NCBI GenBank assembly: GCA_009692005.1
Contig: SHZZ01000002.1
Location: forward strand, 1 to 64,000
DNA from: Gemmataceae bacterium
GTDB lineage: Bacteria > Planctomycetota > Planctomycetia > Gemmatales > Gemmataceae
DNA: 64,000 nt
Direction of reading: 5' to 3'
Positions 10,860 through 13,948 of this stretch are shown here, one piece after another. The stretch's first letter is position 1; each line of letters starts with the position of its first letter. The notes under the pieces are model-generated. The model was given only the letters and a program-made list of their open reading frames with translations. It was not told the origin of the DNA and did no database searches. The position numbers were made by a program, and so were the translations under genes.

Positions 10860-11567
10860 ATGAATTCTCAAGTAGGGGTTTTACCCCGGACCAGAGCGGA
10901 ACCCAGGATTATATTTAAAGTTCGGGTTCGCTTCCATAAAACCGCTGCACTGCGGTTTATTGGCCACCAAGACCTTGTTCGCCTTTTTGAACGCGCCTGC
11001 CGCAGGTCCCAAATCCCTGTGGCCAGCACCTTGGGTTTTCACCCAAAACTCCGTCTGGTATTTGCCCTTTCCCTGCCCTTGGGGGTCGTGGGCCGAAATG
11101 AAATTGTTGAGATCGATTTAACCAGTCCCCCAGACTGCCTTACCCTTCACAAACAACTCCAGGAACAAATTGGTCCAGGGATGGACATCCTTTCGGTCGA
11201 GCCCTCGCCCGGAAAGCACGCTCCCAAAGTTATTTCCTTGTTTTACAAGTTCCCTTTTTCGAGGGAACTCCTTGCTCTTATTGCCCTGAGGGTTGAAGCC
11301 ATCCAGTCAACCCCGCATTCCCCATGCCCTGTATTTCGGGAAGGTAAAAAGTATTGGGATATCCGCCCCTTCATCCGGTTTTTGCAAATCGATGAGGGAG
11401 CTCTCGTCGCCGGGTTGTGGTTCACCCCTGAGGGTACCGCGAAACCCATGGAAATTTTTTCACTATTGGGCCTTGAAGGTCCCCTGCCTCCGGAAACCGT
11501 TATTGAACGCCTCGGTTTGGAACTGGAGGAGGAACACAATTCTTTGAAAGGAATGGTTTTGGAATGA
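10860..11567 (+). CDS. DUF2344 / TIGR03936 family protein
   Basis: This is a 235-residue protein with the signature opening KVRVRFHKTAALRFIGHQDLV, followed by FERACRRSQIPVA and STLGFHPKLRLVFALSLPLGV. These are characteristic of the radical-SAM-linked DUF2344 family found upstream of RNase E/G genes. In most genomes a radical SAM gene precedes or is fused to it; here the upstream 160 bases are non-coding and ptsI comes before them. It overlaps the RNase E/G start as ATGA (11564-11567), which implies translational coupling. The biochemical role is unknown, possibly RNA modification linked to RNase E/G. The start codon is uncertain, since the first 20 residues are poorly conserved. Confidence 0.85.
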   Translation: MNSQVGVLPRTRAEPRIIFKVRVRFHKTAALRFIGHQDLVRLFERACRRSQIPVASTLGFHPKLRLVFALSLPLGVVGRNEIVEIDLTSPPDCLTLHKQLQEQIGPGMDILSVEPSPGKHAPKVISLFYKFPFSRELLALIALRVEAIQSTPHSPCPVFREGKKYWDIRPFIRFLQIDEGALVAGLWFTPEGTAKPMEIFSLLGLEGPLPPETVIERLGLELEEEHNSLKGMVLE

Positions 11568-13948
11568 AGAAAGTAATGTTGATTAATGTGCTTCAACCCG
11601 AGGAATGTCGCATTGCGATCCTCGAAAATGGAGTTCTGGAAGAACTTTATGTGGAGCGCACGAGTCACGAAAGTTATGTCGGCAACATTTATAAGGGTAA
11701 AATTGTCAACATTGAGCCGAGTATCCAGGCAGCTTTTGTCGATTTTGGTGTTGGCCGAAACGGCTTTCTCCATGTCTCTGATGTGGAACCTTCCTATTAC
11801 AAGCACCTGGAATACGGCCGCGACGAGGGAGATTCTGGCCGGGGAAGGCGGAACAGTGGTGACGAGGGAGATTCTGGCCGGGGAAGGCGGAGCAGTGGCG
11901 GTGGGGGAAGTGGTGGTGGCAGTGGCGGTGGAAGAGACCGAGGCCGCCCTCGCCAGGAACACGAAGCCCAGCCGATGGTTCAAAGGGAGCAAAACCTACC
12001 GCCTGAACCATTTGTCCAAGAGGAAATAATTGAGAAGATTACAGCTCTCGATATGCCTGTTGATTTGGGTTTTGGCGCCAATTTAGACTTTGATGAACCA
12101 AACCAGGGCAACCTCAGGCCGGGGGAAGATCGCGAGAATCCGCCATCCATGCCCTCTGCACCCAGGATCACTGGCGAAGGGGAGGATGATTTCGAGCCTT
12201 CCTCGCCAGCGCCGTTTGCGGATGAGGATCTGGTTTTTTCCAAGCCTTTTCCGTCAGGGTCGGCCCCGGTGGAAAGCACCCCCCAAGAGGATCGGGGTGG
12301 TCGGGAAGTATTTGCTCAATCGGAGGAAAATCCTCCTCAGTTTGACGATGCGGTCCAACCCATTTCTAGTCCGGAAGGTTCGCCACCCGCTTCGCAGGAA
12401 GGCCCCGGGCGGGGCAATCAAGAAGGTCGGGAACCGGGGCGGCGGCATGAAGAACGAAGTCGCGGCGGAGACCGGGACCGTGGCCGCGATGGCGGCCGCG
12501 ACCGTGGGCGAGATCGTGGGCGCGATGGTGACCGGGATGGTGGGCGAGACCGTGGCCGCGATGGTGGTCGAAGGCAAGGCCCCCGCGAAGGATCTCGTGA
12601 TCAAGGTCGATCTGGTGCCTGGGGGATGTCCAATGGCCGTATCGGCCGTCCAAAGCCACTCATTCAAAATGTTTTCCGCAAAGGCCAGGAAGTCCTGGTG
12701 CAAGTAATCAAGGAAGGGATTGGCACCAAGGGGCCAACCCTGAGCACCTATATCAGCATTCCGGGCCGATACCTGGTGTTGATGCCTGGATTGAATCGCG
12801 TTGGGGTATCCAGGAAAATCACCGATGAAGATCAAAGGCGCCGTTTGCGCGATATTTTTGTCGACCTCAAGCCCCCCAAGGGCATTGGCTTTATCATTCG
12901 CACTGCGGGAATTGATCGGAATAAGCGTGAACTACAGCGAGATTTGGCTTACCTGTGCCGACTGTGGCAAGTGGTTGCCAAGCGTATTATGAGCGTCAAG
13001 GGACCGGCGGAGATTTACCAGGAAAGCGACATGATTACCCGGACCATCCGGGACACTTTCACAAGCGACATCAACGAAATTGTCGTGGATGAAAGTAGAT
13101 CATACGAACAGGCGCGGGAATTTCTCCAGTTTGTCATGCCGCGTTACGCGGACCGGATCAAATTCCATGAAGGCACCATGCCACTTTTCCACCAATACCG
13201 GTTGGAAGAGGAAATTGCCAAGATTCACATGAAAAAGATCCCGCTACCCATGGGGGGATCGATTGTGATTGAACAAACCGAAGCGCTGGTGGCCATCGAT
13301 GTCAACAGTGGCAATTTCCGGGGTGAAAATAATGCCGAGGACACTGCCTTCAAGATGAACCTTCAGGCGGCCAGGGAAATTGCCCGCCAACTCCGCTTGC
13401 GCGACCTTGGCGGGGTCATTGTCAACGATTTCATTGATATGCGGGAAGATAAACATCGCCGCGCAGTGGAAAAAGCCATGCGTGACGCGGTCGCCAGGGA
13501 TAGGGCCCGCACCAAAATCCTGCGGATTTCCGCTTTTGGCATTATCGAAATGACCCGGCAGAGAATCCGCCCTTCTCTCAAGCGCAGCGTCTTTCACGAT
13601 TGCCCCTATTGCAAGGGCATGGCTCAGGTGAAAACTCCGGAAAGCATGGTCATCGAAGCAATGCGATTAATGCAAGTGGCGGCATTCCGCGAGGGAATTG
13701 CGCAAGTTGATGTGCGGGTAGCTAACGAAACGGCGGACCATCTGCTCAACAAGAAAAAAGGCGACCTGTGGAAATTGGAAGAGGGGAGCGGCGTGACCAT
13801 CGTGGTTCGCGGCGAGGCCGGGGTTCCGCCCGAATTATTGGAAGTGGTGGGTCGGGATAAATCCGGCGCTGAAGCCTTTGTTTTCCCGGTGCAAGAGCCT
13901 TCCCGAAAAAGCGATTTCCAAAGAAAAGGTCGCTGGTCAGGCAGGTAA
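11564..13948 (+). CDS. rng: Ribonuclease E/G with a large low-complexity insertion in the S1 domain
   Basis: This is a 794-residue endoribonuclease for rRNA maturation and mRNA decay. The S1 domain begins as usual (YVGNIYKGKIVNIEPSIQAA, FLHVSDVEP) but is broken at about residue 86. Roughly 270 residues rich in Arg, Gly, Asp, Glu and Pro follow, and S1 resumes near 358 with FRKGQEVLVQVIKEGIGTKG. The catalytic aspartates are Asp579 (AIDVNSG) and Asp622 (VNDFID), spaced 43 as in E. coli RNase E. The Zn-link is CPYC at 680-683. No C-terminal degradosome scaffold is present. The insertion holds RGG-like and RDRG repeats that may bind RNA. A clear terminator follows. Confidence 0.93.
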   Translation: MKKVMLINVLQPEECRIAILENGVLEELYVERTSHESYVGNIYKGKIVNIEPSIQAAFVDFGVGRNGFLHVSDVEPSYYKHLEYGRDEGDSGRGRRNSGDEGDSGRGRRSSGGGGSGGGSGGGRDRGRPRQEHEAQPMVQREQNLPPEPFVQEEIIEKITALDMPVDLGFGANLDFDEPNQGNLRPGEDRENPPSMPSAPRITGEGEDDFEPSSPAPFADEDLVFSKPFPSGSAPVESTPQEDRGGREVFAQSEENPPQFDDAVQPISSPEGSPPASQEGPGRGNQEGREPGRRHEERSRGGDRDRGRDGGRDRGRDRGRDGDRDGGRDRGRDGGRRQGPREGSRDQGRSGAWGMSNGRIGRPKPLIQNVFRKGQEVLVQVIKEGIGTKGPTLSTYISIPGRYLVLMPGLNRVGVSRKITDEDQRRRLRDIFVDLKPPKGIGFIIRTAGIDRNKRELQRDLAYLCRLWQVVAKRIMSVKGPAEIYQESDMITRTIRDTFTSDINEIVVDESRSYEQAREFLQFVMPRYADRIKFHEGTMPLFHQYRLEEEIAKIHMKKIPLPMGGSIVIEQTEALVAIDVNSGNFRGENNAEDTAFKMNLQAAREIARQLRLRDLGGVIVNDFIDMREDKHRRAVEKAMRDAVARDRARTKILRISAFGIIEMTRQRIRPSLKRSVFHDCPYCKGMAQVKTPESMVIEAMRLMQVAAFREGIAQVDVRVANETADHLLNKKKGDLWKLEEGSGVTIVVRGEAGVPPELLEVVGRDKSGAEAFVFPVQEPSRKSDFQRKGRWSGR
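11822..11899 (+). repeat. Two tandem 39-base copies inside the RNase E/G insertion
   Basis: The unit at 11822-11860 is followed directly by a second copy at 11861-11899 with only two visible differences. Each encodes DEGDSGRGRR plus (N/S)SG. The length is a multiple of three, so copy number can change without shifting the frame. Confidence 0.85.
12463..12576 (+). repeat. Degenerate tandem repeats encoding RDRGRDGG-type sequence
   Basis: Short related units built on cgtgggcgagat / cgtggccgcgatggt code for a run of Arg-Asp-Arg-Gly and Asp-Gly-Gly elements. They lie in the second half of the RNase E/G insertion. Boundaries are approximate because the units are imperfect. Confidence 0.7.

Follow-up and report, generated by a model that had tools for sequence, protein, structure and literature searches.

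A long R/G-armed insertion in the S1 domain of RNase E/G from Gemmataceae and other planctomycetes, a candidate degradosome scaffold

Introduction

In a 64,000-nucleotide stretch of Gemmataceae DNA (the window), one gene encodes an RNase E/G whose S1 RNA-binding domain breaks off midway and resumes 282 residues later. What is this intervening segment, how widely is it kept, and could it do the work that Arg-rich regions do in other RNases E? In Pseudomonas aeruginosa RNase E, according to the part of PMC11964227 available to us, Arg-rich motifs bind RNA and form foci, and other short motifs serve as docking sites for PNPase and RhlB. For planctomycetes, a 2011 survey gave RNase E/G lengths of 509–588 aa and, from protein size, predicted no degradosome (PMC3071783, available in part). 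Inserts of 50–150 aa at this S1 site are known in alpha-proteobacteria and plants, and in Caulobacter a helix of the insert protrudes into the RNA-binding site (accessible portion of PMC4245959). Hence the insertion site is already known; what is new is the size (to 933 aa), the R/G-rich ends, the lack of a C-terminal tail, the conserved motifs and the peptides common to other RNA proteins. A planctomycete S1 insert with R/G arms and shared peptides was not found in the open literature, a scope that leaves aside preprints and most subscription journals. Within that literature, articles on RNase E and Gemmata concern other subjects by title, and the combination of RNase E, Planctomycetota and intrinsically disordered returned nothing.

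Results

An in-frame insertion splits the S1 domain

The reading frame runs from 11564 to 13948 without an internal stop; a DUF2344 gene and a PEP-utilising enzyme gene lie upstream. Its product is the only PF10150 match in the 4.19-Mb genome (the window is on contig C87), and it belongs to the RNase E/G family by both PF10150 (341.2 bits, cut-off 25.5) and TIGR00757 (492.8 bits, cut-off 325.95). It falls short of the E. coli-type RNase E equivalog NF008074 (427.4 bits versus 908), and a C-terminal tail is absent, with only 49 aa beyond the RNase E core. When aligned to the solved E. coli enzyme (2bx2), the protein matches in two blocks, residues 3–80 and 363–745, between which E. coli has 6 residues (chain 86 to 93) and the window protein 282. 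The Pfam S1 match ends at residue 75, and the RNase_E_G match spans residues 398–667. The features of the gene are as follows.

11564–13948, plus strand: RNase E/G gene of 794 aa, with an ATG that overlaps the stop codon of the upstream DUF2344 gene
11564–11803, plus strand: N-terminal part and first half of S1, residues 1–80 (Pfam and 2bx2 alignment)
11804–12649, plus strand: S1 insert, residues 81–362, 282 aa (2bx2 alignment)
12650–13948, plus strand: second half of S1, 5' sensor, catalytic domain, zinc link, small domain and 49-aa C-terminus
13298–13300, plus strand: catalytic Asp D579 (2bx2 alignment; invariant column)
13427–13429, plus strand: catalytic Asp D622 (2bx2 alignment; invariant column)
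13601–13612, plus strand: zinc-link CPYC, C680–C683 (2bx2 alignment; invariant column)

Residues D579, D622, C680, C683 and the 5'-sensor pair R446 and T447 are invariant in 17 sequences at E. coli spacing. The two aspartates are 43 residues apart, and no gap versus E. coli occurs across the Asp pair and zinc link. From their aligned positions, we take D579 and D622 to be E. coli D303 and D346. An initial annotation of this DNA had described an S1 domain that is interrupted and then resumes, with the Asp pair and zinc link spaced as in E. coli, and the alignment bears out both points. It had placed the insert at 11822–12640 (about 270 residues); these boundaries hold to within 20 bases, although the insert is slightly wider.

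The insert is kept across several planctomycete families

A phylum-wide search found RNase E matches in 235 of 244 genomes; from the matches listed with coordinates, genomes were picked for measurement so as to cover many families. Insert length, whose comparison across Planctomycetota the initial annotation had suggested, was measured in 138 genomes, close relatives included. Families are numbered here: f1 is the Gemmataceae, f2 is another family of the same order, and f4 is presumably Pirellulaceae-like.

All 32 measurable genomes of the 37 in f1 carry an insert, of 230–774 aa (G006 and G027 have no RNase E match; G002, G009 and G029 lack a readable N-terminus or locus). The same is true of f2 (6/6 genomes, 150–414 aa; G042, in which RNase E is split, was left out), f3 (4/4, 556–933 aa) and f5 (3/3, 444–493 aa). 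Together these four families have the insert in 45 of 45 measured genomes, and where the C-terminal tail after the core is closed it comprises 31–107 aa. The loop is short in f4 (22–34 aa, 10/10 genomes), measures 41–79 aa in five f6 genomes, and is 14 aa, with a 238-aa C-terminal tail, in one f7 genome. Inserts of 150–305 aa also occur in f26, f37, f39, f40, f61 and one of six f30 genomes. Overall, 55 of the 138 genomes have an insert of at least 140 aa. On a tree of the conserved core, this distribution needs 7 changes, indicating that the insert is old in the lineage and has been gained or lost several times; f1, f2, f3 and f5 do not form one side of any branch, and a single origin is not evident from this tree.

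The initial annotation had allowed that the insertion might be an assembly error or be missing from close relatives. Its presence throughout the measurable Gemmataceae, in the one-contig genomes G001, G008 and G031, and in 18 of 18 records of named relatives excludes both. A trade-off between insert and C-terminal tail was also considered and gave no clean rule: among 136 proteins, 54 have an insert of at least 140 aa, 6 have a tail of at least 140 aa, and 3 (f26) have both.

Other RNases E in the phylum carry extensions elsewhere. C-terminal tails with repeated Arg/Lys blocks are seen in L145 (G249, f53) and in L122–L124 of f26, the family that combines insert and tail. In f30 (L127–L132), f58 (L148) and f27 (L125), 270–590 aa lie ahead of the RNase E core, measured stop to stop and hence an upper bound. 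Disordered extensions may thus sit at the N-terminus of RNase E in these further planctomycete families.

An acidic middle lies between R/G-rich ends

The initial annotation had called the insert low in complexity, with Arg-Gly and Arg-Asp repeats. This describes its R/G-rich ends but not the acidic, Pro-rich middle, which holds conserved motifs. The label RGD/RGG-rich does not fit, in that RGD is absent and RGG occurs twice; the repeating elements are RG (10), GR (21), GRD (8) and RDRG (5). In total the insert has 23 RG/GR and a net charge of −13. Its densest 60-aa stretch contains 39 R+G, compared to a maximum of 27 in other window frames of at least 100 aa.

11804–11953, plus strand: N-terminal R/G-rich arm, covering the insert's first 50 aa
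11822–11898, plus strand: 39-bp tandem duplication, 97% matches, within the N-terminal arm
12472–12567, plus strand: 24/36-bp repeats encoding the RDRG/GRD repeats
12500–12649, plus strand: C-terminal R/G-rich arm, last 50 aa, adjoining the resumption of S1

The near-perfect 39-bp duplication at 11822–11898 is likely a product of slippage. R+G content is higher in the last 50 aa than in the middle in all 55 inserts of at least 140 aa. For the first 50 aa, this holds in 32/32 f1 inserts but only 1/6 f2 inserts.

Disorder prediction, another suggested check, placed 54 of the 55 long inserts on the disordered side of the charge-hydropathy line. By this measure, which reflects composition only, the window insert has a value of −0.288 and the RNase E core +0.115. 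An AlphaFold model built with 17 sequences gives the insert no secondary structure; because the model is poor throughout (pLDDT 47), it cannot be taken as proof of disorder or of the S1 fold. Charge blocks are significant (z > 3) in 26 of 32 f1 inserts and not in the window insert (z 0.44; 576 of 2000 shuffles as high). A poly-Arg block, present in 4/4 f3 and 3/3 f26 inserts, was rejected as a common element, as the longest R/K run in the window insert is 2. Nor is a GC artefact supported, the window having a GC content of 0.52 and the insert a lower GC3 (0.51) than the core (0.59). Inserts of f3 (L056, L061–L063) have a conserved acidic, helix-like stretch, e.g. EIDPELEQEIRREIEEIEELEREMGLRG, near their C-terminal end.

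Three short peptides are conserved within the insert

Alignment of 50 inserts (f1 and named relatives, partly redundant) revealed three conserved peptides, which were scored leave-one-out against residue shuffles.

12059–12097, plus strand: motif A, VDLGFGANLDFDE (family form FGAG[IL]); leave-one-out p 0.005
12137–12202, plus strand: motif B, NPPSMPSAPRITGEGEDDFEPS (family form PRxMxSAERRTxxxDE); leave-one-out p 0.005
12212–12253, plus strand: motif C, PFADEDLVFSKPFP (family forms DEDLxFPR or PNDRF); leave-one-out p 0.01; strict form

Motif B reached a p value of 0.005 or lower in 29 of the 32 f1 inserts, compared to 16 for motif A and 13 for motif C. Motifs A and B also score in some f2 and f5 inserts and mostly not in other families. 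Motif A is found in 21 of 45 inserts, compared to ∼0.5 expected from residue shuffles; in the window genome it is degenerate (FGANL). These motifs, their matches in Rho, NYN-OST-HTH and SpoVG proteins, and the R/D/G tail of PNPase go beyond what the initial annotation had noted.

The same peptides recur in other RNA proteins

In the window genome, a DD..F peptide occurs as DEDLVFSK in RNase E, DEEIVFTPR at the N-terminus of Rho and LDDILFSRK at the C-terminus of a NYN protein (Rho and NYN loci L300 and L417, G000). All motif patterns used below were fixed after examples had been looked at. As a DNA pattern, [DE][DE]FGAG[IL] gave 18 matches in 41 Gemmataceae genomes versus 4 for the reversed control. 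Eight of the 18 fall in plausible disordered regions: three RNase E inserts, one Rho, and the C-termini of two NYN proteins, one SpoVG-like protein and one SF2-like helicase, the last named by inspection only. The others, judged by eye, lie in antisense or doubtful frames or in folded parts. For the NYN protein, Pfam confirmed the NYN domain, with OST-HTH under the cut-off; the SpoVG locus was matched by PF04026.

In SpoVG, FGx[GN]Phi lies within 9 aa of the end in 32 of 50 genomes, compared to ∼0.15 by shuffling (f1 19/30, f2 3/5, f3 4/4, f4 4/4 and f6 2/2; f5 0/3, f7 0/1 and f8 0/1; G005 not included). The SpoVG of the window genome is without the FG peptide. FGx[GN]Phi is present in 10 of 29 NYN tails (one tail open), and among 42 NYN C-termini a looser FG pattern is found in 16 (shuffle mean 0.04) and the DD..F type in 8 (shuffle mean 0.39). 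For Rho, FG[AE]G[IL] appears in 3/10 f1 and 2/2 f6 proteins, and the proteins of G000 and G019 have the DD..F motif. Rho-family matches number two to three per Gemmataceae genome. Rho had been fetched in 30 genomes (28 read) as a control for R/G content; few R/G occur in its extensions in either group (medians 2 and 1; n 16 and 8), which argues against R/G richness being common to RNA proteins at large.

Across 8,109 frames from the window and the loci, strict motif C matched 17 times: 10 in RNase E inserts, 3 at NYN C-termini, 2 at Rho N-termini, and 2 elsewhere (one in the window's PEP-utilising enzyme, the other in a frame close to RNase E in a different family). As the loci were chosen around these genes, this is a figure of specificity rather than a genome-wide count.

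Do the motif classes of different proteins go together? Within f1 (n = 29), those of NYN and RNase E tended to match, for A (9/9 versus 7/20, p 0.0012) and for C (7/8 versus 6/21, p 0.0097). On the tree, this matching rests on 2–3 independent pairs and is not significant; common descent alone could therefore produce it. Across all families, no significant association was seen between motif A of RNase E and motif A of NYN (p 0.32) or SpoVG (p 0.76). In f4 the SpoVG peptide is kept without an RNase E insert and without an R/G tail on PNPase, from which it appears that the SpoVG FGxG[IL] peptide may be older than the insert. C-terminal FGxG[IL] of SpoVG is conserved in both f3 and f4 (L349, L356, L357, L351, L372).

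PNPase carries a tail of similar composition

PNPase of the window genome (L182, G000:C48:271–2313, minus strand) ends in (GGDRGG)n, its tail running off the contig end. PNPase tails with at least three RG/GR are found in 22 of 31 f1 genomes versus 0 of 10 f4 genomes. Taken as yes/no traits, the R/G tail and the insert are associated when the tree is ignored (n 93, p 0.0007) and not significantly so on the tree, where 4 independent pairs gave 1.8 in the same direction and 0.3 in the opposite one, and contrasts gave r 0.10–0.12 (p 0.13–0.18). As graded R/G content, the contrast between PNPase tail and insert is significant (r 0.28–0.33, p 0.002–0.005). These contrasts used branch floors, as near-zero branches otherwise dominate (r 0.017). 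Seven PNPase tails reach contig ends and are lower bounds, and the analysis was made both with and without them. The partial rank correlation between insert R/G and PNPase R/G, given GC, is 0.42. A search of the window genome with the R/G segment of the insert yielded no other convincing match; this is a weak negative, since it also missed the PNPase tail. The DEAD-box helicase L184 has a K/Q/S tail.

Discussion

The insertion, its conservation and make-up, its motifs and their recurrence in other proteins are direct observations. We propose, at about even chances, that the insert is a lineage-conserved disordered degradosome scaffold within the S1 loop, its R/G arms serving RNA and its peptides a common putative partner. 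In other RNases E, Arg-rich stretches bind RNA and short motifs dock partners (PMC11964227, in its accessible part), and we read the arms and peptides here likewise. The R/G-rich ends beside S1 would most likely act as low-specificity RNA-binding arms, which may favour clustering, and the middle peptides FGxG[IL], MxSAERRT and DD[IL]xF[ST]xR most likely dock partners. FGxG and DD..F peptides recur in disordered ends of Rho, NYN-OST-HTH, SpoVG and one SF2-like helicase. Most simply, then, one shared putative receptor would gather these RNA-processing enzymes together with RNase E. RNase E would display the peptide from S1, up to four copies on a presumed tetramer, and PNPase may join through the arms via its R/D/G tail of like composition. 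Stated in full, for Gemmatales and relatives, the model has RNase E, Rho, NYN-OST-HTH, SpoVG and the SF2-like helicase gathered on one putative receptor via FGxG[IL] or DD[IL]xF[ST]xR, RNase E from a giant S1 loop, with the R/D/G tail bringing in PNPase; this fuller version is tentative, and we consider it possible rather than probable.

How does the insert compare with known systems? The closest in site is the alpha-proteobacterial and plant S1 insert (Caulobacter, PDB 4OXP), described in the portion of its source available to us as charged and predicted to be disordered. Aligning 4OXP to the window protein places its insertion at this same S1 loop. Size and make-up differ: in three alpha-proteobacterial enzymes the inserts measure 59, 130 and 161 aa, contain 0 RG/GR and are accompanied by C-terminal tails of 300–601 aa, whereas the window RNase E has 282 aa with 23 RG/GR and no such tail. 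The gamma-proteobacterial scaffold (E. coli, P. aeruginosa), as far as the available accounts go, is alike in its disorder, Arg-rich repeats and short linear motifs. It lies behind the catalytic domain, whereas the planctomycete scaffold would lie inside S1; the shift in site of the disordered part, which the initial annotation had pointed out, is evident from the S1 insert and the 49-aa C-terminus. None of the partner motifs quoted in the accessible part of PMC11964227 is seen in the window insert. BR-body RNase E tails (Caulobacter, Sinorhizobium), again from partly available sources, also constitute a long disordered region of an RNA-decay endonuclease. Their position in the protein differs. 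Their charge blocks have counterparts in 26 of 32 f1 inserts, the window insert having no significant ones, and RNA-dependent condensates, a mark of BR-bodies, would be hypothetical for the planctomycete insert. Thus, the likeness to condensate-forming tails first suggested for the insert extends to compositional disorder but not, in the window, to significant charge blocks (z 0.4). Finally, the C-termini of two NYN proteins, DDDIPF or EDSIPF, recall the C-terminal tip of SSB (DDDIPF in the excerpt available), in which acidic residues precede Phe at the protein end. Unlike that tip, these ends belong to proteins that are not SSB, and their receptor is only putative.

An alternative is a regulatory flap, as proposed for Caulobacter, in which the insert covers the RNA channel and controls substrate access, its arms and acidic middle competing with RNA, with no scaffold role. 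The Caulobacter insert occupies the same site and extends a helix into the RNA-binding site (PMC4245959, in part), and a net negative insert (−13) with R/G-rich arms would suit such gating. However, motifs common to Rho, NYN and SpoVG and lengths of 150–933 aa would both go unexplained, and we regard this reading as unlikely. Rather less likely still is mostly neutral low-complexity growth, with slippage-prone R/G/D repeats expanding in a length-tolerant surface loop to little functional effect. It is hard to reconcile with an insert kept in 45/45 f1, f2, f3 and f5 genomes, with an R/G-rich end in a fixed place and with conservation of motif B across genera, although it accounts for the tandem repeats at the DNA level and for lengths that range from 150 to 933 aa within the group, in a loop that is variable elsewhere too (PMC4245959). 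An arm for RNA alone, which would raise local RNA affinity and carry the motifs as by-products of acidic, Phe-containing disordered sequence, fits the universal C-terminal R/G-rich arm and the chance appearance of FG-like words in acidic disordered regions, yet it is improbable given that shuffles yield motif A in ∼0.5 of 45 inserts versus 21 observed, and ∼0.15 of 50 SpoVG tails versus 32.

Whole planctomycete families have RNase E frames of ∼650 to >1400 aa that hide a disordered region. Because this region sits in S1, counts of C-terminal tails alone miss such RNases E. The shared peptide offers a cheap, direct handle on the partners of RNA decay in a phylum whose cell plan is unusual, and raises the question of a physical link between RNA decay and Rho termination in Planctomycetota. 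If the fuller, more tentative version of the model is true, these bacteria would link a degradosome-like assembly to transcription termination, in an arrangement resembling the SSB hub but serving RNA.
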